Assembly (NCBI RefSeq): GCF_003755185.1
Contig: NZ_RKIC01000011.1
Coordinates: 407,018-471,017 of the forward strand
DNA from: Frigoribacterium sp. PhB24
Lineage (GTDB): Bacteria; Actinomycetota; Actinomycetes; Actinomycetales; Microbacteriaceae
Length of the DNA: 64,000 nt
Reading direction: 5' to 3'
The notes under the pieces are model-generated. The model did not search any database. It was not told where the DNA came from and saw only the letters and a list, made by a program, of their open reading frames with translations. Position 1 is the stretch's first letter, and each line of letters opens with the position of its first letter. This document shows, one piece after another, positions 3,016-64,000 of this stretch. A program made the position numbers and the translations under genes.

Positions 3016-3279
3016 GCTGGTCTCCTCACAAGGGGCGAGCTCGTGCGGGACGGGCTCTGCGGTGGCCCCGGCGGTGCGGACCGGACCCGTCTCTGGGTGC
3101 GATTCGCCTCGTGTTCGAGCGGTGTTCACCGCGGAGCATCGATCTGGACACGTCGTCGTGCCGTTGCAGACTACCCGATGGGGCCTTCGGCGGCCAGGGA
3201 CGGCGCCCGAAGCGTGTCCGTTTCGTGATATGCACCTCCCGCCGTCCGGCGGGTGTCGTCGCCTTGGTACGGTGGGGCG
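3016..3279. other. Divergent intergenic region
   Basis: This 264-bp stretch separates the leftward polysaccharide operon from the rightward ABC exporter. It must hold promoters for both. I can point to a -10-like box only for the rightward gene (3268-3273). Open frames here are short and shadow-like. Confidence 0.5.
3268..3273 (+). promoter_or_regulatory. -10 box of a likely leaderless promoter
   Basis: TACGGT ends six bases before the ATG at 3280, placing the expected transcription start on the start codon itself. No ribosome binding site precedes that ATG. Confidence 0.5.
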
Positions 3280-4746
3280 ATGGCTGGACGGCGCGAGGAC
3301 GAAGTGGGTGAGATCGCCCCCGACTCGACGCCGGGTGACGACGCGGTCGGAGCGGTGGGCGCATCCGACCAGGGGGAGAACGCAGTGGACGACGGCACGA
3401 CGACCACGGGGGACGTGGCCGACGGCGCGATGGCGGTGACGGGTGACGAGGCTCCGACCACCGGGGCAGGGTCCGCCGACGCAGGGTCGTCCGGCGCAGG
3501 GTCGACCGGCGCGTCGACGTCGACGGGCCGCAAGCCCGCGGCGCCCCGCAAGCCCGCGACGCCGCGCAAGCCCGCGACGCCCCGTAAACCATCGCAGCGG
3601 ACGGCGGCCGACCGGTCGGCCGCCGCCAAGAAGGCGGCGGCGACGCGTGCCGCCAACGCGCGCGCCCGGGCCGAGGCCGCGGCGAAGGCCGCGGAAGAAG
3701 AACTCGTCGTCGAGCTGGCCGACGCGGGGGTCACGACCGACGGCACCGTGGTCGTCCCCGTCTCGGCCGACGACTACTTCGGCGACGCCCTGGCCGCCGA
3801 GGACGAATCGGCCGCGGCCCTCGACGAGGCCCTCACCGTCGTCGCCCCTCCGACCGAAACGGGCGACGACGTCCCCACGACGGCCGACGAGACGGCCGAC
3901 GAGACGGCCGTCGAGGCCTCGTCCGACGAGCCTGCCGCCGTCGACCCGGGCCACGCGCGTCCCGGCCGCCCGGTCGACACCGAGGCCCCCGTGGTCCTCG
4001 CCATCTCGGGACTCATGAAGCGCTACGGCGGCACGGTCGCGGTCGAGAACGTCGACCTCGAGGTCCGGGCCGGCTCGTTCTACGGCATCGTCGGTCCGAA
4101 CGGGGCCGGCAAGACCACCACGCTGTCGATCGTCACCGGTCTGTTGCGGCCCGACGCCGGCACGGTGACCGTCCTCGGCGCCGACGTCTGGCGCGACCCG
4201 GCCGCGGCCAAGCGGTCGCTCGGCGTCCTCCCCGACCGCCTGCGTCTCTTCGATCGGCTGACCGGAGCGCAACTCCTCTACTACTCGGCGACCCTGCGCG
4301 GGCTCGACGGGGTCACGGCCCGCAAGCGGTCCTCCGACCTCGCCACGGCGTTCGGCCTGCACGACGCGCTCGGCCGTCTCGTCAGCGACTACTCCGTGGG
4401 CATGACGAAGAAGATCGCCCTGGCCGCCGCGATCATCCATTCCCCGCGGGTCCTCGTGCTCGACGAGCCGTTCGAGTCGGTCGACCCCGTCTCGGCCGCG
4501 ACGGTGACGGACGTCCTCCAGCGCTACGTGGCCGGGGGCGGGACGGTGCTGCTCTCGAGTCACAGCATGGACCTGGTCGAGCGCATCTGCGACAGCGTCG
4601 CGGTCATCGTCGACGGTCACGTCCTCGCCAGCGGCACGGTCGACGAGGTCCGGGCCGGGCGCTCCCTCGAGCAGCGGTTCGTCGAGCTCGCCGGCGGGCG
4701 CGCGGTCACGGAGGGCATGGAATGGTTGCAGAACTTCTCCGACTGA
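3280..4746 (+). CDS. ABC transporter ATPase with long disordered N-terminal extension
   Basis: 488 residues. Residues 1 to about 225 are low-complexity (Ala, Asp, Thr, Pro, Glu-rich) and include a 15-bp DNA repeat coding tandem PRKPAT units, then an Ala/Lys/Arg helix and an acidic stretch. The ABC ATPase domain follows: Walker A GPNGAGKTT, Walker B VLVLDEPFESVD, switch LLSSHSMD. The signature motif is DYSVGMTKK instead of LSGGQ, so it is divergent. The domain resembles CcmA-type drug or lipid exporter ATPases. The overlapping permease follows. I chose ATG 3280 because a -10-like box lies exactly six bases upstream; an alternative start nine codons earlier has no support. The extension is absent from ordinary ATPases of this family. 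Confidence 0.88.
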   Translation: MAGRREDEVGEIAPDSTPGDDAVGAVGASDQGENAVDDGTTTTGDVADGAMAVTGDEAPTTGAGSADAGSSGAGSTGASTSTGRKPAAPRKPATPRKPATPRKPSQRTAADRSAAAKKAAATRAANARARAEAAAKAAEEELVVELADAGVTTDGTVVVPVSADDYFGDALAAEDESAAALDEALTVVAPPTETGDDVPTTADETADETAVEASSDEPAAVDPGHARPGRPVDTEAPVVLAISGLMKRYGGTVAVENVDLEVRAGSFYGIVGPNGAGKTTTLSIVTGLLRPDAGTVTVLGADVWRDPAAAKRSLGVLPDRLRLFDRLTGAQLLYYSATLRGLDGVTARKRSSDLATAFGLHDALGRLVSDYSVGMTKKIALAAAIIHSPRVLVLDEPFESVDPVSAATVTDVLQRYVAGGGTVLLSSHSMDLVERICDSVAVIVDGHVLASGTVDEVRAGRSLEQRFVELAGGRAVTEGMEWLQNFSD

Positions 4747-6287
4747 GACTGCAGACGATCGGCAACACGGTCCGCTTCGGACCGCGTCGCCTGGCCGTCG
4801 CGGTTGCTTCCGTCCTCGCTGTCCTCATCGTCACCATCGCGGTCGCGAGCCTCGTCAGCGGCTTGCGTGACGCGCCCCTCGACGACGTCCGGGCTCTCGC
4901 GGTCGGCGGGGGCGCCCTGCTGCTCGTGGGCTTCGCCGTCGTGCCCTTCGCGACCGTCCGTCCCGCCTGGAGCGACCCTCGCCGCCTGGCGGTCCTCGGT
5001 GTGCCCGAGGGGCGTGCGGCCGTCGGCCTGGCACTCGGCACCGTCATCGGCCTGCCCACCCTCGCCCTGCTCGTCCTGTCGACCGGCTACGTCCGGGCGT
5101 GGGGCGAAGGAACCGGCGTGGCGGCCGTCGCCGTCGTGGCCGCCTTCGTCGCCGGGGTGACCGCCCTGTTGCTCGCCCTGGTGGCCTCGACGCTGAACAG
5201 CGTCGTCCTGACGTCCCGGCGCGGGCGGGAGCTGGCGCTCGTCGGTGCCGTGCTCGTGGTCCTGCTGGCCGTGCCGGTGATCGTCGACCTGGTCCGTCTC
5301 TCGCTGCCGGGCCGTTCGGGCACCGGCGTCATCGCCGACACCCTCGCCTGGACGCCTTTCGGGGCCGCCCTCGCGCTTCCCGGTCACGTCGCGGCCGGCC
5401 AGACCGGGCGCGTCGTGGCCGACGTCCTCATCGCCACGGTCACGCTCGCCGTCCTCTGGCTCGCGTGGCGGGCCCTCGTCGCCCGTGCGTTCGTCGACCG
5501 ACCCGAGCCCGAAGAGGTCGACGACCACGACGGGCTCGGCTGGTTCGAGTACGTCCGCGCCTCGCCGACGGGTGCCGTCGCCGGCCGCAGCCTCACCTAC
5601 TGGATGCGCGACGCGCGCTACCGCATGTCGCTCGTCATCATCCCGTTCCTGCCCCTCCTGGTCGTCCCGCTCGGGATCGCCGGGGTCAGCTGGAACTGGC
5701 TGGCGCTCGTCCCCGTGCCGATCATGTGCCTCATCCTCGGGTTCCTGCCGCACAACGACGTGGCCTACGACAGCACCGCGCTCTGGATGCACGTGGCGTC
5801 CGACACGCGGGGTCTGGCGGACCGCGTGGGGCGACTCGCCCCTCCTCTGCTGATCGGGGTCCCGCTCGTCGTGCTCGGCTCGGTCGTGGCGACCTGGCTC
5901 TTCGGCGACTGGCAGGCGCTCCCGTCCGAGCTGGGGGTGAGCGCCGGCTTCCTGCTCAGCGGCCTGGGCCTGTCGAGCCTGGTCTCGGCCCTCATGCCGT
6001 ACGCCACCGTCCGGCCTCACGACGATCCGTTCCAGCAGCCGCAGTCGAACGGCGCCATGGCGGCGTGGGCGCAGACCGTCATGATCGGGGGTGCCGTCCT
6101 GGCGACGGCGCCCGCGCTCTGGTTCGCCGGTCGTGGGCTGATCACGGGGTACCCGACGGGCGGCACGTGGGCACTCGTCCTCGGCGTCGGCGTCGGGCTC
6201 GTCGTGCTGGTCGCCGGCGTCGCCCTCGGTGCCCGGGTCTTCTCCAGACGGGCCCCCGAGCTTCTGGCGTTCGCCCTCCGCAGCTGA
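4722..6287 (+). CDS. ABC exporter permease
   Basis: 521-residue polytopic membrane protein with roughly twelve hydrophobic segments, overlapping the end of the ATPase gene by 25 bases, which marks the two as one translationally coupled exporter. A cytoplasmic stretch in the middle (about residues 255-300, ending ARYRMSLVIIPFLP) separates two membrane halves, as in long actinobacterial ABC-2 type permeases. The cargo is unknown; heterologous relatives move drugs, lipids or peptides. No signal peptide or extracellular domain is seen. Confidence 0.8.
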   Translation: MVAELLRLRLQTIGNTVRFGPRRLAVAVASVLAVLIVTIAVASLVSGLRDAPLDDVRALAVGGGALLLVGFAVVPFATVRPAWSDPRRLAVLGVPEGRAAVGLALGTVIGLPTLALLVLSTGYVRAWGEGTGVAAVAVVAAFVAGVTALLLALVASTLNSVVLTSRRGRELALVGAVLVVLLAVPVIVDLVRLSLPGRSGTGVIADTLAWTPFGAALALPGHVAAGQTGRVVADVLIATVTLAVLWLAWRALVARAFVDRPEPEEVDDHDGLGWFEYVRASPTGAVAGRSLTYWMRDARYRMSLVIIPFLPLLVVPLGIAGVSWNWLALVPVPIMCLILGFLPHNDVAYDSTALWMHVASDTRGLADRVGRLAPPLLIGVPLVVLGSVVATWLFGDWQALPSELGVSAGFLLSGLGLSSLVSALMPYATVRPHDDPFQQPQSNGAMAAWAQTVMIGGAVLATAPALWFAGRGLITGYPTGGTWALVLGVGVGLVVLVAGVALGARVFSRRAPELLAFALRS

Positions 6288-6300
6288 GCCGAGGTCGACG

Positions 6301-6306
6301 TACGAT
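6301..6306 (+). promoter_or_regulatory. -10 box of a likely leaderless promoter
   Basis: TACGAT, then six bases, then the ATG at 6313. The gene has no Shine-Dalgarno sequence, so the message probably begins at the start codon. Confidence 0.55.
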
Positions 6307-6312
6307 GTCTCC

Positions 6313-6573
6313 ATGACTGACACGCAGACGGGCGGCGGCCTCGACGTCATGGACCGCGAGCTCGAGAAGCTCCTGAACGACGAAGCGATCGACCCGGGCG
6401 ACCACGAGCGCTTCTCGCACTACGTCAAGAAGGACAAGATCATGGAGTCCGCCCTCAGCGGCAAGCCCGTCAAGGCGCTCTGTGGCAAGAAGTGGACTCC
6501 CGGACGCGACCCCGAGAAGTTCCCGGTCTGCCCGACCTGCAAAGAGATCTACGAGAAGATGACGCGCGAGTGA
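6313..6573 (+). CDS. DUF3039 family zinc-ribbon-like protein
   Basis: 86-residue protein matching the actinobacterial DUF3039 family in length and in its C-terminal pattern CGKKW(...)CPTCKEIYE, where one Cys and a later CxxC pair could bind zinc. The central [28 protein letters not shown] is the conserved core of the family. Its function is not known; genes of this family commonly sit alone among housekeeping genes. The start ATG is chosen because it follows a -10-like box by six bases and gives the usual family length. Confidence 0.88.
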
Positions 6574-6586
6574 GCCCGGGCCGGGG

Positions 6587-7876
6587 TCAGGCGTAGACGG
6601 TCGGCACGACCGGCTCGCCGCGGCCGAGGCGCAACGCCTGGTCGGGCAGCTCCGCCACGGCCGCGGCCCGGTGGAGGCGTGCGCGGGCCACACCCTCGGC
6701 CCCCGTGTGACGGGTGTCGATCTCACCTGCCGTGACGAGCGGCACGTGCAACGGGCGCTCCCCGTCCGCGACCTCCGACGAGCCGACGCGGATCAGCTCT
6801 CGGGTGGCGACCCCGTCGACGATCACGCGCACCGGCGACTTCCGTCCCCCGACGGTGGCCTTGTCTGCCGACTTCTTCGCCACCGCGACCCAGGCGCCGT
6901 CGTCGCCTCGACGGGCCACCAGCTTGAAGACCATCCCGGCGGCGGGATGGCCAGAGCCCGAGACGACGGAGGTCCCCACGCCGAACGAATCGACCGGGGC
7001 CGCGCGCAGGGCGGCGATCGTGTACTCGTCGAGGTCGTTCGTCACGGTGATCTTCGCCGCGGAGGCCCCGAGGTCGTCGAGCTGGGCCCGGACCTGCCCC
7101 ACCAGCGACGGCAGGTCGCCGCTGTCGATGCGCACGGCCCCGAGCCCCGGACCCGCCACCCGCACGGCGGTGGCCACGGCCTCGGGGATGTCGTAGGTGT
7201 CGACCAGCAGGGTGGTTCGCGGGCCGAGGGTGTCCACCTGGGCACGGAAGGCGTCCTCTTCGGTGTCGTGCAGCAACGTGAACGCATGGGCCGCGGTGCC
7301 CATCGTCGGTACGCCCCACGATCGTCCGGCCTCGAGGTTGCTCGTGGCCCCGAAACCGGCGATGTAGGCGGCGCGGGCCGCGGCGACGGCGCTGCGTTCG
7401 CCCGTGCGGCGCGAGCCCATCTCGGCGAGGGGGCGACCGTCGGCGGCCGAGACCATGCGGGCTGCCGCGCTGGCCACGGCCGAGTCGTAGTTGAAGACGC
7501 TCAGGGCGAGGGTCTCGAGCAACACCGCCTCGGCGAACGTCGACTCGATGACCAGCAGCGGCGACCCGGGCAGGTAGACCTCTCCCTCGGCATAGCCCCG
7601 GATGTCACCCGAGAACCGGTAGTCGGCCAGCCAGTCGGCCGTCGTCCCGTCGACCACGCCGGCGTCGCGCAGCCAACGCAGCTCGTCGTCGCCGAAACGG
7701 AAGTCGGCGAGCAACTCGAGGAATCGGCCGGTGCCCGCGACGATGCCGTAGCGCCTGCCCTCGGGCAGGCGCCGGGCGAACACCTCGAAGACGCTGTCGC
7801 GGTGGGCCGTGCCCGCCTTGAGGGCGGCCTCCACCATGGTGAGCTCGTACCGGTCGGTCAACAGTGCGCTGGTCAC
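6587..7876 (-). CDS. pncB: Nicotinate phosphoribosyltransferase
   Basis: 429-residue enzyme of the NAD salvage (Preiss-Handler) pathway: it joins nicotinate to PRPP to give nicotinate mononucleotide in the cytoplasm. The N-terminal [14 protein letters not shown], the central TMGTAAHAF with the phosphorylatable His, the VDTYD and VRIDSGD motifs, and FGVGTSVV are family hallmarks. Length fits the bacterial enzyme. The GTG start lies six bases downstream of a TAGGCT box, so the transcript may be leaderless, though GGAGG also falls in the gap. It faces murI across a 66-bp divergent promoter region and converges on the DUF3039 gene with only 13 bp between stops. Confidence 0.95.
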
Positions 7877-7942: not shown

Positions 7943-8797
7943 GTGACGGACGCACCCATCGGAGTCTTCGACAGCGGCGTCGGCGGCCTGACCGTGTCGC
8001 GGGCGATCATCGACCAGCTGCCCCACGAGTCCATCCGGTACGTGGGCGACACGGCCCACTCGCCGTACGGGCCGAAGCCCATCGCCCAGGTGCGCGAGTA
8101 CGCCCTCGCCGTGATGGACGACCTCGTGGCGCAGGGCGTCAAGCTGCTGGTCATCGCCTGCAACACGGCGTCGTCCGCGGTGCTGCGCGACGCCCGCGAG
8201 CGGTACACGATCGGCGCGGGCATCCCCGTGGTCGAGGTGATCCAGCCGGCCGTGCGCGCTGCGGTGCAGCAGACCCGCAACGGTCGCATCGGCGTGATCG
8301 GCACCGAGGGCACGATCAACTCGCGCGCCTACGAGGACGCCTTCGCGGCCGCCGCGGGCCTCGAGCTGTTCACGCAGGCGTGCCCTCGCTTCGTCGAGTT
8401 CGTCGAGGCGGGCGACACGTCGAGTCCCGAGCTGCGGGCCGTCGCCGAGGGGTACCTCGCCCCCCTGCGCGACGCGGGCATCGACACGCTCGTCCTCGGC
8501 TGCACCCACTACCCGCTCATGTCCGCCGCCGTGCAGTACGTGGTCGGCCCCGACGTCCGTCTCGTGTCCAGTGCGGAGGAGACCGCGGCCGACGTCTACC
8601 GCACCCTCGTCCAGCACGGGCTCGAGCGAACCGACCGCGGCGAGCCGCACCACGAGTTCGAGGCCACCGGGCCCGACGGCACGGCGTTCCTGCGCCTCGC
8701 CCGACGGTTCCTGGGGCCCGAGGTCTCGCGCGTCGGCCACCTCGAGACGGGCGCGATCGAGCTGCCCACCGGCCTCCGCCCCGTCGAACGGACCTGA
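7943..8797 (+). CDS. murI: Glutamate racemase
   Basis: 284-residue cofactor-independent racemase making D-glutamate for peptidoglycan. The signature [12 protein letters not shown] is at the N-terminus, with the two catalytic cysteines in ACNTASS (about residue 73) and GCTHYPL (about residue 190). Length is usual. Start: GTG at 7943 gives the standard [13 protein letters not shown]-terminus; another in-frame GTG two codons earlier cannot be excluded. It is followed after 75 bp by rph and rdgB on the same strand, the common murI-rph-rdgB order of actinobacteria. Confidence 0.96.
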
Positions 8798-8872
8798 CCC
8801 GCGCCTCCTGCGCTCCCCGAGGGGTCGACGACCCCGCCCGCCACCCGTCCACCACCGCCGAGAGAAGGCACC

Positions 8873-9619
8873 ATGACCGACATCACGAGCACGACCGTCC
8901 GCGCCGACGGGCGCAGCACCACCGACCTGCGCCCCGTCACGATCGAGACCGGCTGGAGCGCCCACGCCGAGGGCAGCGCACTGATCACGTTCGGCGGCAC
9001 GAAGGTGCTCTGCACGGCGTCCTTCACGAACGGCGTGCCCCGCTGGTTGACGGGCAAGGGCAAGGGGTGGGTCACCGCCGAGTACGCGATGCTGCCCCGA
9101 GCCACCAACTCGCGCAACGACCGCGAGAGCGTCAAGGGGAAGATCGGCGGTCGCACGCACGAGATCTCGCGTCTGATCGGCCGCAGCCTGCGGGCGGTGG
9201 TCGACACGAAGGCACTCGGCGAGAACACGATCGTGCTCGACTGCGACGTCCTGCAGGCCGACGGCGGCACCCGCACCGCCGCGATCACCGGCGCCTACGT
9301 CGCCCTCGCCCAGGCGATCGAGTGGGGCCGCGAGAAGAAGTTCGTCGGGCAGAAGGCCACGCCTCTCACCGACAGTGTCTCGGCCGTCTCGGTGGGCATC
9401 ATCGACGGCGAGCCCATGCTCGACCTCGCCTACGTCGAGGACGTCCGTGCCGAGACCGACATGAACGTCGTCGTCACCGGCAGTGGATCGTTCGTCGAGG
9501 TGCAGGGAACGGCCGAGGGCGCGCCCTTCGACCGTCGCGAACTCGACTCGCTGCTCGACCTCGCCGTCGCCGGGGCCGTCGACCTGAGCCGCTTCCAGCG
9601 CGAGGCCCTCGGCCGATGA
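8873..9619 (+). CDS. rph: Ribonuclease PH
   Basis: 248-residue phosphate-dependent 3'-5' exoribonuclease that trims tRNA 3' ends. Family motifs seen include [10 protein letters not shown], the [19 protein letters not shown] block with substrate-binding residues, [13 protein letters not shown], and [24 protein letters not shown] ribosome binding site precedes the ATG. The stop overlaps the rdgB start by four bases (ATGA), so the two are translated together. Confidence 0.97.
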
Positions 9620-10242
9620 CCCGTGTCGTCATCGCCACGCACAACCCGGGCAAGGTGGCCGAGTTGCGGCTGCTGCTCGCCGAGACGGCCCCCGGCGTCG
9701 AGCTGGTCGCCTACGACGGCCCCGAACCGGTCGAGGACGGCGACACCTTCGCCGCCAACGCCCTGATCAAGGCCCGTGCGGCCGCACGCCACACGGGACT
9801 GCCCGCGCTCGCCGACGACAGCGGCATCTCGGCGGCGGCCCTCGGCGGGGCACCGGGCATCCACTCGGCCCGCTACGCCGGGACGCGCGACGCGGACGAC
9901 AACATCGACAAGCTGCTGACCGAGCTCGGCGGTGCCGACGACCGCTCGGCCTGGTTCTCGTGCGCGGCCGCGCTCGTCGTGCCGCCGCCCACCGGGGCCG
10001 AGGGGCCCGACGGTCCGCCCGAGGGCAGCGAGTGGGTCGAGCACGTCGAGTACGGCGAATGGCACGGAGAGGTGCTGGAGGCGCGGGTCGGCTCGAACGG
10101 GCACGGCTACGACCCCGTGTTCCGGCCCGAGGGCGAGAGCCGCAGCGCCGCCGAACTCACCGCGGACGAGAAGAACGCGGTCAGCCACCGCTCCCGGGCG
10201 TTCCGGGCTATCGCACCCCGGGTGGCCGCGCTCGCCGACTGA
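9616..10242 (+). CDS. rdgB: XTP/dITP diphosphatase (RdgB/HAM1)
   Basis: 208-residue nucleotide house-cleaning enzyme that hydrolyses non-canonical purine triphosphates to monophosphates. Motifs: [11 protein letters not shown] at the N-terminus, ADDSGI (metal site), [18 protein letters not shown] and SHRSRAF near the C-terminus. A 30-residue Pro/Gly/Glu-rich insertion ([19 protein letters not shown]) sits between core strands, longer than in typical homologs but usual enough in actinobacteria. Start codon overlaps the rph stop by four bases. Confidence 0.96.
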
Positions 10243-10299: not shown

Positions 10300-11007
10300 T
10301 CAGGCGTCGTGGGGGGCGGACGACACGTCGGGCATCTTGACTTCGCCCGACTGCTCGGCCTTCTTCGCCTGGTGCACGCCGTGGACGTAGTGGATCGCGA
10401 TGGGGATCACCGTCGCGAGCACGGCCCCGAGCAGGATCAGGTCGATGTACGAGCTGACGAAGTTCGCGACGGGCGGGATGTGCCCGATGCCGAAGCCCGC
10501 CAGCGTGATGCCCATGCCCCAGACGACGGCGCCGATCGCGTTGAACAGCGAATAGCGCCGGTAGCTCATGTGGCCGACCCCGGCCATGATCGGCGCGAAG
10601 GTGCGGATCACCGGGACGAACCGGGCGATGATGACGGCCGTGGGGCCGAAGCGCTCGAAGAACGCGTTCGTGCGGTTGACGTTGGCCACGCTGAACAGCC
10701 CGCTCTCCTTCCGCTCGAAGATGCGCGGGCCGACCTTGTGGCCGATGAGGTAGCCGAGCTCACCGCCGGCGAACGCGGCGATGCTGATGAAGATCGCGAT
10801 CAGCCAGATCGGCAGGCCGAGGGCTCCGGGGTTGGTCGCGGCGAGGATGCCCGTGATGATCAGCAGCGTGTCACCCGGGAAGAGGAAGCCGACGAGCAGA
10901 CCCGTCTCGGCGAAGACGAGCAGGCAGACTCCCAGCACGGCCCACGGGCCGAAGGCCGTGAGGAGGTACTCCGGGTTGAGCCAGGGGATGGAGACGAGGG
11001 GCAGCAT
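10300..11007 (-). CDS. DedA family membrane protein
   Basis: 235-residue integral membrane protein of the DedA/SNARE-associated family. The motif FAETGLLVGFLFPGDTLL, the re-entrant segment GGELGYLIGHKVG and the FERFGPTAVIIARFVPVIRTFAPIMAGVGHMSYRR block with conserved Glu, Arg and Gly residues are clear. DedA proteins support membrane potential and recycling of lipid carriers such as undecaprenyl phosphate. The start at 11007 is preceded by CGGAGAA; a longer frame upstream lacks one. A -10-like TAGCCT lies at 11052-11057 on the minus strand. A second, distinct DedA gene is at 24732. Confidence 0.92.
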   Translation of the reverse strand: MLPLVSIPWLNPEYLLTAFGPWAVLGVCLLVFAETGLLVGFLFPGDTLLIITGILAATNPGALGLPIWLIAIFISIAAFAGGELGYLIGHKVGPRIFERKESGLFSVANVNRTNAFFERFGPTAVIIARFVPVIRTFAPIMAGVGHMSYRRYSLFNAIGAVVWGMGITLAGFGIGHIPPVANFVSSYIDLILLGAVLATVIPIAIHYVHGVHQAKKAEQSGEVKMPDVSSAPHDA

Positions 11008-11101
11008 CGGGTGTTCTCCGGTCGAGGTGGCCGGCCTGCCGGTCTCGATCAGGCTACCCGTGCGGGAGGGGCACATCGGCCCTCGTCCCGTCGGGCGGTC
11101 G

Positions 11102-11183
11102 TGCGGGAGAAGGGACTTGAACCCTCACGCTCGAAAGCACAGGAACCTAAATCCTGCGTGTCTGCCAATTCCACCACTCCCGC
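11102..11183 (-). tRNA. tRNA-Leu(UAG)
   Basis: Read on the minus strand it folds as a class II tRNA. The acceptor stem is GCGGGAG paired with CTCCCGC, the D-arm contains TTGGCAGAC, and the anticodon stem CAGGA/TCCTG encloses the loop TTTAGGT, giving anticodon UAG. A long variable arm follows, then a T-arm with loop TTCAAGT. The discriminator base is A, as required for leucine; CCA is not encoded. A TACACT -10-like box lies at 11194-11199, correctly placed for transcription start just upstream of the tRNA. Confidence 0.95.
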
Positions 11184-11193
11184 GGCAGCACCG

Positions 11194-11199
11194 AGTGTA
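11194..11199 (-). promoter_or_regulatory. -10 box for tRNA-Leu
   Basis: TACACT on the minus strand, ending ten bases before the tRNA 5' end; a weak TTCCGG -35 candidate sits 17 bp further upstream (11217-11222). Confidence 0.45.
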
Positions 11200-11239
11200 C
11201 CGACGACGGCCCCGTGCCGGAACGGCGGACGAGGAGGCG

Positions 11240-12490
11240 CTAGCGCTTCGAGCGGGGCACGTGCGGTGAGTACCGGGGCACGTAGCGCACGAGGATCGCC
11301 GCGCCCACGAGCCCGAGCACACCCATCACCCCGCTGGCGAGCGAGATCGACACGAGCGCGGTCACGCCGGAGATGAGGAGCGGGGCCGCTGCGCTGCCGG
11401 CGTCCCCGGTGAAGCGCCACGCGCCGAGGAAGGGTGCGGGGTCGCCCTTGTCGGCCAGGTCGGCGCCGAGCGTCATGAGGATGCCGCTGCCGATGCCGTT
11501 GGCCAGCGACATCAGGACGGCGACCGCGACGAACCACCCGATGTTCGCGTCGAGGTCGTGCGTGACCGACAGGGCCAGGTACGAGAGTCCGAGACCGACC
11601 ATGCAGGGGACGGCGCTCCACAGCCGCCCGAAGCGGTCCATGATCTGGCCGCTCGTGTAGAAGAGGGCGAAGTCCACGGCCCCGGCGACGCCGATGATGA
11701 TCGCTGTCTCCGATGCCCCGAGGCCGATGCTGACGGCCCAGAGTGGCAGCATCACCTGGCGGCCGGAGCGCATCGCGCCGATCAGGGCCGCGCCGCTGCC
11801 GAGCTTCACCAGGACGCCGCGGTGACGCCAGAGGGTGCCGAACAGCCCGTGGGACTCCTTCGCCACGAGCTCGGCGCCGTCCTCCGCGCCACGCCCCGGC
11901 CGGACCCCGAAGGCCGCCGACGGGTCGCGCAGGACGAGCAGCGCGATCGCCGCGCCGAGGCAGCCGACGATGTGCACGACGAACGCCGACTGGACGGACC
12001 CGGTCAGCTCGATGACCCCGGCCGACAGGAACGGGCCGACGAAGTAGCCGAGCCGGAAGACGCCGCCCAGGCTCGACAGCGCCCGGGCGCGGATCTCGAC
12101 GGGGACGAAGCTCGTCATGAAGGCGTGTCTCGCGAGGGCGAACACCGCGGTCGCGAGACCGATGACGAGCACGCCGACGGCGAGGACGATCTCGTTCGGA
12201 GCCAGCAGACAGGTGACGAGACCACCGATGCTGACGAGCGAGGCCCCGATCATCGAGGTGCGCTCGCCGATGCGGCCGACGAGCCAGCCGCTGGGGATGT
12301 CGCCGATCAGCTCGCCCACCAGGATGAGCGCGGCGACGAAGCCCGCGAAGGGGAGCGAGGCACCGAGTTCGCTCGCCACGACGGGGATGATCGGGATGAT
12401 GGCGCCCTCGCCGATGGCGAAGAGAGCCGCGGGCAGGAACGCCGCGAGGGCCACCGACCGCATGCTGAAGGCGGGGGAGGAGGAAGACAT
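11240..12490 (-). CDS. MFS transporter
   Basis: 416-residue major facilitator with about twelve transmembrane segments. The loop 2-3 motif appears as [14 protein letters not shown] and its second-half equivalent as [14 protein letters not shown], both typical of drug/H+ antiporter-type MFS proteins. Substrate is unknown; the sequence is closest in style to multidrug or metabolite exporters. The ATG at 12490 is used because a TAGGGT box lies ten bases upstream, implying a very short leader. The gene faces mnmA across a 39-bp divergent promoter region and ends next to tRNA-Leu. Confidence 0.88.
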
Positions 12491-57381: not shown

Positions 57382-57590
57382 GGTTCTCCTCGTCGGGTCG
57401 CGCGTGCCGGGACGGGACGCGCGGAGCGGGTGGCTCGTCGCGGGCCGTGCCCGGTGATCCGACGAGCCGCCGTGCTCCTCATGGGAAGTCTGAAGAATCC
57501 GTGGCCCGAGCACAGTGGGCACTTGGGGGGACGCCCGATGACCCCCATGCGGGGTACACGGTCGAGAGCGGCGCCGGGTAGCGTCGGGGA
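57382..57590. other. Divergent region between subtilase and epimerase
   Basis: Holds a 9-bp inverted repeat GGCTCGTCG/CGACGAGCC (57432-57440, 57460-57468) in the leader of the subtilase gene, and at the right end the TAGCGT box of the leader ORF. Confidence 0.5.
57579..57584 (+). promoter_or_regulatory. -10 box of a leaderless leader ORF
   Basis: TAGCGT six bases before the ATG at 57591, matching the spacing of other leaderless genes in the window. Confidence 0.5.
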
Positions 57591-57680
57591 ATGTCCTCCG
57601 ATGCCGTGCGCAGCGCCGCCACCCCTCGTCCCCGTCGTCCGCTCCGGGCCCGCCCGATCGTCTCCGGGGTGGCGTCGTGA
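57591..57680 (+). CDS. 29-residue leader ORF overlapping the epimerase start
   Basis: ATG at 57591 opens a 29-codon frame (MSSDAVRSAATPRPRRPLRA ...) rich in Arg and Pro that ends in TGA at 57678-57680, sharing GTGA with the start codon of the next gene. The start sits six bases after a TAGCGT box, so it would be translated from a leaderless transcript and pass ribosomes to the epimerase, which has no good ribosome binding site of its own. The CCTCGTCCCCGTCGTCCG run of Pro/Arg codons could slow ribosomes. Seen in sequence only; no homology claimed. Confidence 0.5.
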   Translation: MSSDAVRSAATPRPRRPLRARPIVSGVAS

Positions 57681-58636
57681 AGATCGTCGTCATCGGGTCC
57701 ACCGGCCACGTGGGCGGTTTCCTCGTCCCTCGACTGGTCGAGGCCGGCCACGAGGTGGTCGCCGTCAGTCGCGGGGCCTCCGAGCCGTACCGACCGCACG
57801 CGGCGTGGTCACGCGTCACGCGCCTCCTGCTCGATCGCGAGGCGGGCGACGCCGACGGCACGTTCGCGAGCGAGATCGCCGGGCTCGGGGCCGACGTCGT
57901 GATCGACATGATCTGCTTCACGGTCGCGTCGGCCCGACAGATGGTCGACGCCCTGCAGGGTACGGGCACCGTGTTGGTGCACTGCGGCACGGTCTGGGTG
58001 CACGGCCCGTCACGCGAAGTTCCGATCACCGAAGAGGCCGAGCGCACCCCCTTCGGCGAGTACGGCACCCAGAAGGCCGCGATCGAAGAGATGTTGTTGC
58101 GTGAGTCGCGGCGCCCCGGCGGGGTGCAGAGCGTCGTGTTGCATCCGGGGCACATCACCGGCCCGGGCTGGCCGATGATCAACGCGGTGGGCAACCTCGA
58201 CCTGTCCGTCTGGGAGGCCCTTGCCGCCGGCCGCGAGATCGCGATGCCGGGCCTCGGCCTCGAGACCGTCCACCACGTGCACGCGGACGACGTCGCGCAG
58301 GCGTTCCAGCTCGCCGCCGAGCGGCACTCGCAGGTCGTCGGCGAGGCGTTCCACATCGTCAGCGAGCGGGCCATCACGCTGCGCGGGCTCGCCGAGGCGA
58401 TCGCCCGGCACGTCGGTCAGGAGGCGCGGCTGCGGTTCGTCTCGTGGGCCGAGTTCCGAGACCAGACGTCCGAGGAGCATGCCGACGCGTCCTGGCAGCA
58501 TGCGTCGCGCAGTCACTCCATGAGCATCGACAAGGCACGACGCCTGCTCGGCTACGCGCCGCGCTACACCTCGGTTCAGGCCGTCGTCGAGGGCCTCAAG
58601 TGGCTCGAGGCCGACGGGCAACTGACGTTGAGGTGA
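57677..58636 (+). CDS. NAD-dependent epimerase/dehydratase family protein
   Basis: 319-residue extended SDR. N-terminal nucleotide-binding MKIVVIGSTGHVGGFLVPRL, catalytic YxxxK pair in EYGTQKAAIEE, and HPGHITGPGWP. The substrate is unknown; nucleotide-sugar modification is possible but no sugar genes adjoin it. GTG start at 57677 begins directly at the first beta strand and overlaps the leader ORF stop by four bases. Confidence 0.88.
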   Translation: MKIVVIGSTGHVGGFLVPRLVEAGHEVVAVSRGASEPYRPHAAWSRVTRLLLDREAGDADGTFASEIAGLGADVVIDMICFTVASARQMVDALQGTGTVLVHCGTVWVHGPSREVPITEEAERTPFGEYGTQKAAIEEMLLRESRRPGGVQSVVLHPGHITGPGWPMINAVGNLDLSVWEALAAGREIAMPGLGLETVHHVHADDVAQAFQLAAERHSQVVGEAFHIVSERAITLRGLAEAIARHVGQEARLRFVSWAEFRDQTSEEHADASWQHASRSHSMSIDKARRLLGYAPRYTSVQAVVEGLKWLEADGQLTLR

Positions 58637-58807
58637 CCTTCGTGCGCGCCGCTCGGGAAGGGGCGTCCGGTGGGCGGTCGTTCATCGGGACACTTTCTCG
58701 GACCTGTCTCGGCCGGCTGAGGTCAAGTGGCGCCTGGCCTGCGGATTCGCGTATGCCTGTCCCGCAAAAATGCCCGGTGACGGGGGTCTAAACGCTACAG
58801 TCGTCAG
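58637..58807. other. Putative resolvase recombination site region
   Basis: 171 bp between epimerase and resolvase. It contains CGGGACA (58686-58692) facing TGTCTCG (58705-58711) across 12 bases, and a further TGTCCCG (58758-58764), the sort of paired inverted sites a serine resolvase would bind next to its own gene. Base composition changes here from very GC-rich to less so. Confidence 0.4.
58796..58801 (+). promoter_or_regulatory. -10 box for the resolvase, leaderless
   Basis: TACAGT six bases before the ATG at 58808; no ribosome binding site. Confidence 0.5.
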
Positions 58808-59374
58808 ATGCTCATCGGATACGCCCGCATGTCGACCTCGGGACAGGACCTCGCAGCACAGCGCGACGGTCTTGCAGCACTCGGTGTTGACGATCAACAC
58901 GTCCATGTTGACCACGGGCTGTCGGGGACGACTCGAGCGCGTCCTGGCCTCCGCGAGGCCCTCGCTGCCTGTCGTACCGGCGACGTCCTGGTCGTGACGA
59001 AGCTCGACCGCCTCGCCCGATCGCTGCGTGATGCGACGGACATCGCGGACGAGCTGACGAAAAAGGGCGTGGCCTTGAATCTCGGGGGAGCGGTCTATGA
59101 CCCGACCGACCCGGTAGGCCGGCTCCTGTTCAACGTCCTCGGCATAGTGGCCGAGTTCGAAGCCGACTTGATCCGTGCCCGAACACGGGAAGGCATGGCG
59201 ATCGCCAAGGCCGCAGGCAAGCTCCGAGGCCGGAAACCCAAGCTGACTGCCTCGCAGGAAAAGCACCTCGTGCAGCTGCACCGCACCGGCGCCCACACGA
59301 CCAGCGAGATCGCGGAGCTCTTCGGTGTCGCCCGCTCGACGGTCTACCGAGCCATCCAGTGTGCAGGAGTGTGA
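58808..59374 (+). CDS. Serine recombinase of the resolvase/invertase family
   Basis: 188-residue site-specific recombinase. Catalytic Ser at residue 9 in GYARMSTSGQD, the conserved LDRLARSLRD block, GRLLFNVLGIVAEFEADLIRARTREG helix E region, and a C-terminal helix-turn-helix (TTSEIAELFGVARSTVYRAI). Full length for a Tn3-type resolvase or Hin-type invertase. No transposase gene, terminal inverted repeats or invertible segment is visible nearby, so its mobile unit may be decayed or extend beyond the window. Marks the left side of the accessory stretch. Confidence 0.92.
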   Translation: MLIGYARMSTSGQDLAAQRDGLAALGVDDQHVHVDHGLSGTTRARPGLREALAACRTGDVLVVTKLDRLARSLRDATDIADELTKKGVALNLGGAVYDPTDPVGRLLFNVLGIVAEFEADLIRARTREGMAIAKAAGKLRGRKPKLTASQEKHLVQLHRTGAHTTSEIAELFGVARSTVYRAIQCAGV

Positions 59375-59404
59375 TGATTCGCGGGAAAGAAAGCCGCGGC
59401 CGCA

Positions 59405-60253
59405 CTAGATCGAGAAGATCTTCTCTCGTTTCTCGCCCTGTTCCTCCCATCGAACAACGATGACGGGGTCATCTGACTGCATTGTGAGCATGTACGGAAA
59501 GCGGCGTGCTTGCCCAGCGTGGACAGTCGTTGGGGCGTCTGGGCCGGCTAGAAAAACGCCCTGTGATGTGGCTTCGACTGTCACGCTCTGGGCATCGACG
59601 GTTCCGCGGTTGATAAGTTCAACCCAGCGACGGGTCTCATGCTTCAGTCGCCCGCGGCTATCCGTCTTGGGAATGGACTCCTGGCCCGGCTGGGCAAGAA
59701 AATCGACTGCTGTTTTCTCCGCAGTGGTGCCGCCTGGGATTCCGGCTATGTCCAACTGGACGAGGTCGTGCTCAATCGCTTGCCAGACGTGCGCTGTTAG
59801 TTCCTCAGGGCTCCGGAACGAGCCGTACAGGCCACGTTGCTGCATCTCGTTTTTAAACTTCGCCAATGCTTTGAGTTGATCGGGATCGACGTCGTTCGGG
59901 TGAGGAGCTTCCGAAAAGTAGAGGTGAACGGGTTTTCCAGATCCCTGTGCCGCTTCGATCTCCTCGGCCGTCCCCGAGACGGACTCAGCCGTGACGGCAC
60001 CGAGTCGGCTGCCGAACAACGCCACCACGATGTCCGATTTTTCCACAAGCTGAGAGTTGATGAGCGCCTGGGGGTGCTTACCGAGCATGGGGACCGAACT
60101 GGTCTCCCACCGAAGGGGGACGAGGACTATGTTCCGATTTGCCGTGTTGGCTTCATTCCAGCGGGTGACGGCCTGGTGAACCTGCTCTCGCTCGGTAGGG
60201 ATGTCGGCAGGAGAGGCGATCATGATGAACAGTGCGGTCGCAAGCTGGGCCAT
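59405..60253 (-). CDS. DUF4062-like Rossmann domain plus Ig-like C-terminal domain
   Basis: 282 residues. The N-terminal half (about 1-130) has the DUF4062/TIR-related pattern: FIMIASPADIPTEREQVHQAV, then LVPLRWETSSVP, SDIVVALFGSRLG and SGTAEEIEAAQGSGKPVHLYFS. Such domains occur as effectors or sensors in STAND-type and other defence proteins. After a helical linker, residues 190-282 form a probable beta sandwich (RRWVELINRGTVDAQSVTVEA). ATG 60253 follows TATCCT by six bases. It is paired with the P-loop ATPase gene upstream on the same strand. Activity unknown; NAD- or nucleotide-cleaving effector is one possibility. Confidence 0.75.
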   Translation of the reverse strand: MAQLATALFIMIASPADIPTEREQVHQAVTRWNEANTANRNIVLVPLRWETSSVPMLGKHPQALINSQLVEKSDIVVALFGSRLGAVTAESVSGTAEEIEAAQGSGKPVHLYFSEAPHPNDVDPDQLKALAKFKNEMQQRGLYGSFRSPEELTAHVWQAIEHDLVQLDIAGIPGGTTAEKTAVDFLAQPGQESIPKTDSRGRLKHETRRWVELINRGTVDAQSVTVEATSQGVFLAGPDAPTTVHAGQARRFPYMLTMQSDDPVIVVRWEEQGEKREKIFSI

Positions 60254-60476
60254 AGTCTGAGGATATATCCGCTTCACAGCGTGATGAGTCGTCTGTGGCA
60301 ATAAGGAGAGGCCTAGGCCGACTGAATGGTCATGGAGTCGCGCTTCACCGGAGGCGTGTCGGTGCGTCGTTGGGCCATCGCGCACCGGCCAACGCGCGAC
60401 TTGCGGAGTCTGAAGCGCCACAACCGCACGAAGATGCTACGACGAGCGCGATGGAACTTGGCACCTTGCGCTGACT
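60254..60476. other. Gap between the two defence-like genes
   Basis: 223 bp with a leaderless-type -10 box (TATCCT on the minus strand, 60260-60265) for the DUF4062-like gene. Two overlapping short frames, one per strand, are rich in Arg and have no convincing start signals; I see no gene here. A weak CGTTGG/CCAACG inverted repeat is present near 60370-60395. Confidence 0.45.
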
Positions 60477-61973
60477 TCATGCTGAAAAGGGGATGTTCCA
60501 CGCGTGGCAGAGGGCGTTGTGCAGGATGAAGCTTCCGTGTAGGTAAAGCTGGGCGTCGTCTCGGCGATGATAAAACTGCATGTAGCTGCCACCGCGAATC
60601 TGGACTTCATTGCCGATCGCTCCAGCGAAGAACAGCAACTTGAGGAGTCGGTTGACGACGGTCGCCTCAGTAACTCCGAGCGTCTCGAGCTGGCTTGCAA
60701 AGGCTGCACGGTCGAACCGTTGGCGCTGGAGGGTCTGAAGGGTGTCTAAGGCCTTGCTGGCTTCGTCGGGTCCGAACTCATAGCCTGCGAACTCGTTACG
60801 GATTGCACCGGGGAAGTAGCGTGTCGCGTATTGCAACACCCCCTCTCGGATGACGTCTTGCCGGAGCTGGTGTTGGCTGGCTGGGAAAATCTGGGACGCT
60901 TCGACGTCGCGGATCGCGTCCAACAGCCGGAGAAGATCCCGGGGTGTGTGGCGGGTGAAGTTCAGGAGGTACTGCAGGCGGTTGATGGTGCGGTGGCTCT
61001 TCCCGTGCAGCTCGATGTTTTTCGGGAAGTAGTCAAGGACGTCAACTCGCTCGACTTCCAGAGCTTTGGCCGCTTTCCCGTTGACCAGGCGAATGAGGGG
61101 AGCGTTGGCGCCCGCTGCCCCGGAAAGGACACGCCAGTCGAGCTCAACGGAGAAGTCGTCGCGCATCTTCTGGGAGTCGGGCAGGGTCAGAGACACTCTG
61201 TTGAAGACATCGTTCCGCAGAAGTAAAACAATTGTGCCGGTGGCGCCCGTGTTGGCGAGGCGCTGATTGATCGAGTAAGCCGCTTGCACTAGTGATGCGA
61301 GGCTCTCGTCGTACTTTTCGTCGTTAAGGAAGATGGAGTCGAGGCCATCGAGCATGAGCAGGTGCCGGTTCCCGGAGCGGGCATTCGCCGCCCACTCTTC
61401 GAGGTAGGGCAGCAGCGAGAAAATGTTCAGCTTTGATCTCGACTCGCGGCGGTAGACCGTGCCGAGCTTCGGGATTGGGATCTCGATGGTGGTGTTCGAC
61501 ACATTCAGGATCGCCCGGCCGGTCGTGTCGCCGAGAAGCCCGTACTGGCGTAGCAGCCGAGTGACACGGGTGACCTCCGCACGGTTCGGGAGGTCGCAGG
61601 ACTGGTCCTCGAGTAGGAGGGACAGGTAGTTGCAGAGCAGGATGAACTTCCATGCGGAGACCGTCCGGTCGGTGCCGGCGGGTTGGCCGGTGTCCAAGCG
61701 GGGAATGTCCGCCAGTGGCAACTCAGAAGCGTCGCGGACGACACAGAGGTAGTTGTTGCCATGCTGGGACTCGTGGAGGTACCACGCGAGGGCAGATTTT
61801 CCGGTGCCCTTCGGGCCGAGAACCAAAGTCTTTTCGCCGGACACGACGGCATCTGTGATCCGGTTGAGATCCACGAAACTTCGGACGAAATCGTCACGAC
61901 CGCCCGACAGCTCGTTCTTCGAGTCGCTCTTCCCAAAGTAGAGGTCTGCAAAGCGAGGAGTCGTCAGCGTCAT
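60477..61973 (-). CDS. P-loop ATPase, Sll1717-like
   Basis: 498 residues. N-terminal RFADLYFGKSDSKNELSGGRDDFVRSFVDLNRI, then Walker A GPKGTGKSALA (about residues 52-62) and Walker B in HLLMLDGLDSIFL (about residue 220). The central part resembles AAA+/STAND ATPases of the Sll1717 family; the C-terminal third (FDRAAFASQLETLGVTEATVVNRLLKLLFFAGAIG) looks like a winged-helix domain. The family is found scattered in bacterial accessory regions. The ATG lies six bases after TACGAT (minus strand), so the transcript is likely leaderless. Composition is less GC-rich than the core genes. Probable partner of the DUF4062-like protein. Confidence 0.78.
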   Translation of the reverse strand: MTLTTPRFADLYFGKSDSKNELSGGRDDFVRSFVDLNRITDAVVSGEKTLVLGPKGTGKSALAWYLHESQHGNNYLCVVRDASELPLADIPRLDTGQPAGTDRTVSAWKFILLCNYLSLLLEDQSCDLPNRAEVTRVTRLLRQYGLLGDTTGRAILNVSNTTIEIPIPKLGTVYRRESRSKLNIFSLLPYLEEWAANARSGNRHLLMLDGLDSIFLNDEKYDESLASLVQAAYSINQRLANTGATGTIVLLLRNDVFNRVSLTLPDSQKMRDDFSVELDWRVLSGAAGANAPLIRLVNGKAAKALEVERVDVLDYFPKNIELHGKSHRTINRLQYLLNFTRHTPRDLLRLLDAIRDVEASQIFPASQHQLRQDVIREGVLQYATRYFPGAIRNEFAGYEFGPDEASKALDTLQTLQRQRFDRAAFASQLETLGVTEATVVNRLLKLLFFAGAIGNEVQIRGGSYMQFYHRRDDAQLYLHGSFILHNALCHAWNIPFSA

Positions 61974-61979
61974 ATCCGG

Positions 61980-61985
61980 ATCGTA
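61980..61985 (-). promoter_or_regulatory. -10 box for the P-loop ATPase gene
   Basis: TACGAT on the minus strand, six bases from the ATG at 61973. Identical to the box of the core DUF3039 gene. Confidence 0.55.
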
Positions 61986-62061
61986 CCGTTGGGCACGGAC
62001 TCCGACCGCCGGAACCGCATGCGCGAATACGAGTCTTCTTGACTGCCTGATAGCCGATTGT

Positions 62062-62319
62062 TCACTGACTCGGCGTGTCCATGGGCTTGTCGTCTTCGTC
62101 CTCAGGCTCGAAGCCGCGGTCAAAGACGTTGTCGGCTCGGTGCCAGACCTGAATCCCGATCGTGAAGACCAACACGGGCAGCGCGCCGGCCAGGCGAAGT
62201 AGCCAGGGCAGATCAGGGGCGACCAAGTTGGCCACGAGGGGACCGATGACAAGCAAGACTGCCGTAATAATGATCCCGGAGGCCAGCCGCTTCCGCCGCT
62301 GCGCCGCAGGAGTTTGCAT
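62062..62319 (-). CDS. Small membrane protein
   Basis: 85 residues: a basic N-terminus (AAQRRKRLAS), two hydrophobic helices (about 14-33 and 39-57) and an acidic tail EPEDEDDKPMDTPSQ. Not recognised. It runs in the same direction as the P-loop ATPase gene, 88 bp upstream of it, and may belong to the same accessory module. Confidence 0.6.
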   Translation of the reverse strand: MQTPAAQRRKRLASGIIITAVLLVIGPLVANLVAPDLPWLLRLAGALPVLVFTIGIQVWHRADNVFDRGFEPEDEDDKPMDTPSQ

Positions 62320-62667
62320 GGCTCAGTGTGCAACGAATCGGCGTTCATTGCGCGCACGTGTATTTCGCGCCGCAAGTGCCCGATAGGGGATCGTCTGCCG
62401 GCACGAAGTTCAGTCGTCGCCCTCGGTTTTGTGCGAGGGGCCCGAATTGATCGAAAGGCCTCGGAACATGAAGAGAGAGCTAGCGACACTTCTCACGCTG
62501 ATCGCCGTGCTCACCCAAGGTGTCGAGTGGTCGAGCACGAATGCGTCGGGTCCACGGCCGACTCGGGGAAGCGGCCAAGGTGGATTCTTCGTCGTAAGCC
62601 CTCGCCACGCGGGTGGTTCCACGCCTACGGGCGGTACGTGGGGGAGGTGCCGGCTTACGGTCAGTGG
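62320..62667. other. Divergent intergenic region with one possible small ORF
   Basis: 348 bp between divergent small membrane-protein genes. It holds a TACGGT box (62656-62661) six bases before the next ATG and the possible small frame at 62468. Nothing else is recognised. Confidence 0.45.
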
Positions 62668-62671
62668 ATGA
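62468..62671 (+). CDS. Possible small secreted or membrane peptide
   Basis: 67-codon frame starting MKRELATLLTLIAVLTQGVEW, which looks like a short signal or membrane helix after a basic start, followed by a Gly/Ser/Thr-rich part. Its stop overlaps the next start by four bases (ATGA), as in real coupled genes. No ribosome binding site is clear and the next gene has its own leaderless-type box inside this frame, so it may be spurious. Confidence 0.25.
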   Translation: MKRELATLLTLIAVLTQGVEWSSTNASGPRPTRGSGQGGFFVVSPRHAGGSTPTGGTWGRCRLTVSG

Positions 62672-63240
62672 CCAAGGAAGAGCATGCAACGGGTGGCAAG
62701 ATCGTGGGGCCCTCTTCGCAGGTGATGATGATCCCCTTTTCCGTTTTCGGCGGACTTCTTGCCGCGTTTGCAGCTTTGGGAGACGGTGTCACTGGCGTCA
62801 CATTTGGCGTGTCCGTGACTCTTGCTGCTGTTGCTGTGGTGTCCGCGATCCTGGGGTGGCGAAGAGCCAAGTCCGTCGAGGCTCTGATGCCGTTCATCTA
62901 TTGGAGCAGTGCCGACTATCCCTTCTCGCAGCTCGACCCGGACAGGCGACGACTCCTGGTCCGACAAATGTTCGGACGGGAACCGGTGACAGCTGAGAGC
63001 GCGGAGTTAGTCCGTTTCCTGATTCGCCGTAAGCGGCGTCGTGCGACCGCGCTGATGCCGTCGCTTTTAGCTATGTTTCTCATCCTGGCCGCGCTGGCGA
63101 TCGCAGCTGGCTATCCGGGGTGGGGTTTGCTTGGAGCAGTTCTCCTACTCGCGGTCTTGGTCACGGCAACCCAGTACGAGAAGCGACGCGAGGACCGAGT
63201 GCTTAGGCTCACGGACGAGGCCAACCTAGATAGGGAGTGA
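62668..63240 (+). CDS. Membrane protein with two hydrophobic hairpins
   Basis: 190 residues. Two hydrophobic helices near the N-terminus (about 16-33 and 40-60), a cytoplasmic central region (YWSSADYPFSQLDPDRRRLLVRQMFGREPVTAESAELVRFLIRRKRRR) and a second pair of helices (about 130-170) before a charged tail. Not recognised. ATG 62668 lies six bases after TACGGT; the frame is open for 118 codons upstream, but that part reads like non-coding sequence. Confidence 0.65.
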   Translation: MTKEEHATGGKIVGPSSQVMMIPFSVFGGLLAAFAALGDGVTGVTFGVSVTLAAVAVVSAILGWRRAKSVEALMPFIYWSSADYPFSQLDPDRRRLLVRQMFGREPVTAESAELVRFLIRRKRRRATALMPSLLAMFLILAALAIAAGYPGWGLLGAVLLLAVLVTATQYEKRREDRVLRLTDEANLDRE

Positions 63241-63304
63241 TGTACTCCGAAGCCGACTCTCGCAACTTTGCAAGCTGTTCTTTTTCATCGACAAGGAGCG
63301 ATTG

Positions 63305-63493
63305 ATGTCGTCCAAGATGCCTCGCTGGCGAAAGCGCATGGGTGTGGCCACGATCTTCTACGCGCTCGGCGCCACGCTGTTCATTGTCAACGTGTTCATT
63401 GACCTGCCCAAGGCGCTGAGTCTTCTGGGCGTGGCGCTCATCGCGATCGGCCTTTACTTCAACATTCGCGTTATGGCTGAGATGCGTCGCTGA
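63305..63493 (+). CDS. Small two-helix membrane protein
   Basis: 62 residues: basic start (MSSKMPRWRKRMG) and two hydrophobic helices (VATIFYALGATLFIVNVFI; ALSLLGVALIAIGLYFNI). ATG preceded by AAGGAGCGATTG. Not recognised; probably an orphan envelope protein of the accessory stretch. Confidence 0.6.
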   Translation: MSSKMPRWRKRMGVATIFYALGATLFIVNVFIDLPKALSLLGVALIAIGLYFNIRVMAEMRR

Positions 63494-63618
63494 CGGCCGT
63501 CACTTGAAGGGACTATTTCCAAGGGCAGGTGCATCGTCCCGTTGAGGGATCGACGAGCGGGCGTTCTGCCGATTGGCAATGTCGCGAGGGGGCGGACCCG
63601 TCACCGGCTACGGCACCA
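63494..63618. other. Convergent intergenic region
   Basis: 125 bp between two convergent small membrane-protein genes; no convincing hairpin or gene is seen. Confidence 0.4.
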
Positions 63619-63984
63619 TCAAGCTGTCGCGGCATAAGTCATTAGGGCGGAGGCGAGCAGAATGAGAGCGCCGAGCATGACTAATGCACCGAGAACAAGG
63701 ATGGCGATCCCTCGTGGGTTGGCTCGATCGCGAAGCAACCAGATACCGATTGATGAGGCCAAGAGGAGTAGGCCCGCGAGGAACGGGTAAGCACGAAGGG
63801 TCCCGGCGCCGAGGGCGTAGTTGCAGTTGCCCGTGCGGGGGATACACGCGGCGAATGCCATGGAACCGATGGCCACGGCGTACCAGCCGACGAACGCAAG
63901 AGGGACACCAAGCAGGACGATTCCCACGATTGCTGAGAAGACGACGCTCATCGGAGATCCCACGCTTCTGCGTTCATTGCTCAC
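63619..63984 (-). CDS. Small four-helix membrane protein
   Basis: 121 residues with four hydrophobic segments and the extracytoplasmic loop CIPRTGNCNYALGAG carrying two cysteines that could form a disulfide. Start uncertain: GTG 63984, or the ATG at 63951 which has GGGATC ahead of it and removes 11 residues. Not recognised. Confidence 0.6.
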   Translation of the reverse strand: MSNERRSVGSPMSVVFSAIVGIVLLGVPLAFVGWYAVAIGSMAFAACIPRTGNCNYALGAGTLRAYPFLAGLLLLASSIGIWLLRDRANPRGIAILVLGALVMLGALILLASALMTYAATA

Positions 63985-64000
63985 TGATCAATCGTGTCAC

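Follow-up and report, generated by a model that had tools for sequence, protein, structure and literature searches.

Adjacent genes for a DUF4062 protein and an Sll1717-family ATPase in a Frigoribacterium insertion are not a conserved pair

A preprint of May 2026 (PMC13174449) presents DUF4062 domains as TIR-like NADases. According to it, one-gene DUF4062 proteins named Swarozyc protect Escherichia coli from phages by abortive infection, and some DUF4062 genes share operons with genes for other enzymes. In one Swarozyc protein, KpSwz, the catalytic Glu is E97, and the trigger is the phage portal, acting via an auxiliary domain of helix-turn-helix/winged fold that is reached through a helical stalk. 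Here we analyse a DUF4062 gene (product P0002) and the neighbouring gene of an Sll1717-family P-loop ATPase (product P0001) in 64,000 nt of Frigoribacterium sp. PhB24 (Microbacteriaceae; GCF_003755185.1, NZ_RKIC01000011.1:407,018-471,017, forward strand), a stretch called the window throughout and whose positions are used below. The two genes are not co-conserved, and we consider it rather probable that they are two independent pieces of mobile cargo lying side by side: a one-gene, Swarozyc-like defence protein and an unrelated Sll1717 ATPase. The features that bear on this reading are as follows.

59405..60253, minus strand: DUF4062 (TIR-like) gene, product P0002, 282 amino acids (PF13271).
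59948..59980, minus strand, approximate: stretch coding for the motif S93-G94-T95-A96-E97-E98 and adjacent residues, marked from conservation in alignments.
60254..60274, minus strand: leaderless-type -10 box (TATCCT) lying 6 nt upstream of the DUF4062 ATG; the box recurs in relatives.
60477..61973, minus strand: Sll1717-family P-loop ATPase gene, product P0001, 498 amino acids (NF047389).
61974..61990, minus strand: leaderless-type -10 box (TACGAT) lying 6 nt upstream of the ATPase ATG.

P0002 shares with KpSwz a single-gene organisation, an N-terminal DUF4062 TIR-like domain with a conserved Glu and a C-terminal auxiliary domain, and both types turn up on mobile DNA and in the company of defence genes. 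Its N-terminal NADase-type domain covers residues ~6-168 and its tail residues ~180-282. Residues 10-102 match PF13271 at 28.1 bits, a small margin over the cut-off of 24.7; the family is matched by 18/18 proteins of P0002 architecture, and a profile-profile alignment of the P0002 type with canonical DUF4062 members gives 96.4% probability (E 1.3e-9). The predicted structure is confident for residues 1-168, where strands and helices alternate in a TIR-like, five-stranded alpha/beta fold. When this model was compared with known folds, TIR and nucleotide-N-glycosidase (NDT-type) chains were among the best rows, with some unrelated Rossmann chains scoring nearly as high. A preliminary description, made from the sequence, had assigned a DUF4062/TIR-related domain to the small protein, and both the Pfam match and the fold agree with it. 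The motif S93-G94-T95-x-E97-E98 is kept in all 18 aligned proteins of this architecture and in 11/11 of another alignment, so the loss of active-site residues in all homologs, which that description had named as evidence against its proposal, is not what we find. In the profile-profile alignment E98 lines up with the Glu that canonical DUF4062 proteins conserve, and it is likely to be the catalytic Glu of P0002.

The tail is where P0002 appears to depart from the published protein: KpSwz carries its helix-turn-helix/winged domain on a helical stalk, whereas the P0002 tail, of ~100 residues, is predicted to be strand-rich and possibly Ig-like. Strands are predicted there at a model pLDDT below 50, about six Ig-like Pfam families are each matched by 1/18 relatives, and such hints as the sequence gives point to an Ig-like domain and not to a winged helix. 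The beta-sandwich tail previously described is tentative. Searches by sequence for a solved relative gave no convincing match with single proteins or with profiles A3, A4 and A5, and P0002 had no match among 50,697 phage records. We considered and rejected a full PADLOC PDC-S60 assignment: residues 10-153 match only model positions 7-156 of 906 (E 1.8e-22), and P0002 lacks the remainder of that model.

The neighbouring ATPase is a full-length member of NCBIfam NF047389 (ATPase_Sll1717), with 261 bits against a cut-off of 75 (E 1.9e-77) and residues 13-492 spanning model positions 1-454 of 454. It also matches the phage family phrog_13260 along its length (residues 7-493, E 4.4e-45). Walker A residues G53-K55-G56-G58-K59 and D209/D212 are invariant across 19 aligned family members, in agreement with the Sll1717-type ATPase with Walker A/B motifs read earlier from the sequence. 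Our literature search found no paper naming Sll1717 or NF047389. P0001 was also tried as component 1 (NF053860) of DS-41, a system named in the DefensePredictor paper (PMC13092281), and was rejected as a distant similarity far under the cut-off (35.5 bits in two stretches, E 5.5e-9; cut-off 370); none of 118 genomes of the class had an NF053860 member over the cut-off. P0001 is a conserved full-length P-loop ATPase for which a defence or exclusion role is plausible, because the family is carried by prophages and found near restriction-modification (R-M) genes.

The two genes lie on the same strand, 223 bp apart, with P0002 downstream of the ATPase, and the preliminary description had joined them into one system of sensor ATPase and TIR-like effector. 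To evaluate this we used locus-level and genome-level co-occurrence in samples that were parts of larger groups (394 genomes of the class, 396 of the order and 249 of the family); many loci carried just 1.5 kb of flank. The closest relatives of P0001 (76% in Naasia lichenicola, 61%, 59% in Mycolicibacterium iranicum and 59% in Gordonia) came from a scan in which each species was represented by one genome (3 loci) and from a family search (L046/L210), and neither narrow nor broad profiles detected DUF4062 in their loci. P0002 had matches in 13/394 class genomes and 28/396 order genomes, and no Sll1717 gene was detected in 19 fetched regions of its order-level relatives or in loci L017-L022. Among plasmids, 4/186 matching records cover at least 80% of P0002. 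Three of these, from Amycolatopsis, Curtobacterium and Rhodococcus, were examined as intact genes and show no Sll1717 gene next door, though in the Rhodococcus record a distant Sll1717-like gene lies 5.6 kb away. Across all loci analysed, with near-identical proteins collapsed and our own genome left out, the other family was found within 500 bp of 0/51 distinct Sll1717 genes and 0/39 distinct P0002-type genes, at least 1 kb of flank being present on both sides for 30/51 and 36/39, respectively. No relative of either gene keeps the other adjacent, and a lack of co-conservation had been set beforehand as the finding that counts against a single system. We therefore conclude from these tests that the pair is not co-conserved, and we reject the two-gene system.

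Both families may have a loose tendency to occur in the same mobile or defence regions. Three regions (L024, L092 and L129) hold both within 6 kb, 0.9-5.6 kb apart. In L024, read with broad profiles, an Sll1717 ATPase (8443-9909) and a distant DUF4062 gene (10783-12258, 55.3 bits) lie 880 bp apart on opposite strands with a small gene between them, and in L129, a prophage-like contig, a canonical DUF4062 gene stands 2.8 kb upstream of an Sll1717 ATPase (5890-7458) on the same strand. A further candidate, a DUF4062 gene beside a P-loop open reading frame (ORF) in genome G257 (L012/L062), was discarded: the ORF encodes another kind of ATPase and lies on the opposite strand. Among the 394 class genomes, Sll1717 was over the cut-off in 45 and DUF4062 in 54. 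A hand count gives 21 genomes with both genes; 18 of these belong to a single family with large genomes, and the 3 outside it compare with ~1.7 expected.

Each gene is preceded by its own promoter-like box, and the reading of TACGAT and TATCCT, each 6 nt before an ATG, as leaderless-type boxes holds up. For the DUF4062 gene this can be followed in relatives. Of 27 P0002-type loci supplied to a survey of starts, one had no start, leaving 26 genes, one of them our own; in 13/26 of these the start is preceded by a TANNNT box whose end lies 4-9 nt away. The corresponding rates are 1.7% for random positions and 2.6% for ATGs of the same loci. The genes are related and do not amount to 26 independent trials. 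A purine-rich ribosome site was flagged in 6/26, and in only 1 of the 13 that bear a box. Because the box recurs near starts and ribosome sites are rare among the genes that have it, the P0002 gene probably has a promoter of its own that yields a leaderless mRNA, an arrangement conserved in part of the family. By eye, the ATPase box was not seen upstream of close P0001 relatives, and a scan with promoter and terminator consensus sequences gave counts no higher than shuffles. Separate promoters had been read as a means of tuning the pair; two independent genes would account for them equally well or better.

The neighbourhoods of relatives were scanned with 10 proteins per scan, chosen by eye and with no control, so that they serve as illustration and not as a measure of enrichment; for P0002 the reading excludes locus L199 and part of L200. 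Relatives of P0002 stand near GajB and GajA of Gabija (480 and 551 bits) together with a SIR2-type PDC-S65 gene (L194), near HsdM (886 bits) and HsdS (L197), and near FRG/PDC-S15 and Mrr/PDC-S02 genes (L192); in L193 HerA lies near a DUF4062 copy that is broken. Others (L201, L198 and L202) have element-like surroundings and lie next to an integrase, recombinase or resolvase. Among P0001 relatives, the Gordonia gene adjoins HsdR, one on a Frondihabitans plasmid is beside annotated type I restriction genes, and the 59% relative of Mycolicibacterium iranicum (L028:8529-11491) adjoins a phage integrase, with a major head protein (capsid) gene in the same stretch. An Sll1717 ATPase also lies beside terminase and portal genes on a prophage-like contig (L116:5932-7443). 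Family membership, the fold of the DUF4062 protein and these neighbours support the earlier view of each gene as a candidate for defence.

Several other arrangements were observed around P0002-type genes. In L202 a resolvase (2657-3238, plus strand) is convergent with the DUF4062 relative (3409-4284, minus strand), as in the window. In L017, L191 and L195 the relatives sit amid small membrane-protein genes and long genes in sets of similar appearance, by eye resembling one kind of transfer module, of which two scanned genes had no Pfam match. On the Amycolatopsis plasmid (L090:7227-7997) only 3 nt separate the end of a YfbU family gene from the DUF4062 gene that follows it, and the two may form a local operon. 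A virus contig (L097) carries two tandem P0002-type genes (4738-5715 and 5980-6963, plus strand), with genes for the small terminase, large terminase and portal beside them on the other strand; the portal is the trigger of the published Swarozyc.

Both genes lie in an inserted segment whose window part holds these additional features.

58662..64000, no strand: inserted DNA, the window part of ~21.1 kb, delimited by comparison with genus relatives.
58808..59374, plus strand: serine resolvase/invertase (PF00239, E 1.5e-40), convergent with the DUF4062 gene.

The GC content of the two genes is 59.9% and 58.9%, and that of the insertion's window part 60.8%, compared with 71.7% to the left (window 1-58636). 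The description of two same-strand genes in a less GC-rich stretch beside a resolvase therefore agrees with the coordinates, the GC content and the PF00239 match. Left of the insertion, an epimerase gene (57677-58636) is conserved almost end to end, with at least 78% identity, in 15/16 genus genomes, our own included. In six epimerase regions of genus relatives compared with our genome, similarity ends at about window 58661, and the next conserved gene resumes at C3:486786 on the contig, past the window end; the insertion spans C3:465679 to ~486785 and in window numbering reaches ~79768. Five of the six relatives have the two borders 0.1-0.5 kb apart, so Frigoribacterium sp. PhB24 carries ~21.1 kb of additional DNA at a chromosomal site that in relatives is empty or almost empty. 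In the sixth (L154) a different gene occupies the site and the right border is unmatched, the sequence continuing with chromosomal genes common to L152; the site is variable within the genus. Among the 16 genus genomes P0001 is confined to our own. We found no tRNAs in the region, and by eye no repeats in 57500-64000 stood out as insertion ends. Within the inserted DNA, window 62062-63984 has several short ORFs resembling small membrane proteins, two of which were scanned with no Pfam match over the cut-off. Since some relatives are found near defence genes or in prophages, and both genes lie inside an insertion missing from related genomes, each gene looks like mobile cargo.

That the two genes form one system after all, with the ATPase sensing or being switched by phage and controlling the DUF4062 NADase, the combination being young or of narrow spread, would account for their common strand, 223-bp gap, similar low GC and common insertion; it could also draw on the three regions with both families within 6 kb and on the statement of the preprint (PMC13174449) that operons with other enzymes include some DUF4062 genes. 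We nevertheless give it little credence, since none of the 51 and 39 distinct genes elsewhere is adjacent to one of the other family, the closest relatives of either gene occur without its neighbour, and each gene has its own promoter-like box, that of the DUF4062 gene recurring in relatives. We are equally reserved about both genes being ordinary plasmid or element cargo that takes no part in phage defence and has roles such as maintaining an element or competing with other elements. Several P0002 relatives on plasmids or in element-like modules, the resolvase next door both in the window and in L202, and ATPase relatives encoded in prophages would suit such cargo; neighbours such as Gabija, SIR2, R-M and HerA, together with the defence role of DUF4062 published in the preprint (PMC13174449), argue for defence instead.

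A slightly better prospect, but still improbable, is that P0002 is not a NADase and acts as a nucleotide or nucleoside N-glycosidase (DNPH1/MilB-like) on modified nucleotides, for example those of phages. The fold comparison is unable to separate the two activities; the DUF4062 match, found in all 18 proteins and over the cut-off for P0002 itself, and the domain's fusion to an auxiliary tail, a layout shared with known DUF4062 NADases, point to NADase activity.

We thus return to two independent cargo genes. P0002 has the one-gene layout of a DUF4062 domain with an auxiliary domain, and its relatives have no conserved Sll1717 partner. By analogy with the published proteins, its tail would sense a phage product, the TIR-like domains would then oligomerise and hydrolyse NAD+ with Glu98, and the infected cell would stop growing before the phage matures, that is, by abortive infection. 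The Sll1717 ATPase would do an unrelated job, most likely also in defence or in competition between phages. More speculatively, and with a good deal of doubt, the P0002 group may be a distinct Swarozyc-like branch of minimal, leaderless one-gene NADases, spread by actinobacterial elements, in which an Ig-like tail senses a structural part of the phage other than the portal; the tandem copies in the L097 phage could then be a weapon against rival phages.

The proposed tail architecture of the DUF4062 protein and the recurrent, probably leaderless start of its gene are new here. A tempting two-gene system is removed, and two testable single genes take its place. If the DUF4062 gene works as proposed, a newly described NADase effector would have been reused with a different sensor tail, and such sensors could be swapped and compared. 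The recurrent, probably leaderless start suggests that a defence gene may bring its own promoter wherever it lands, which would be a simple route to expression for mobile cargo in a new host.
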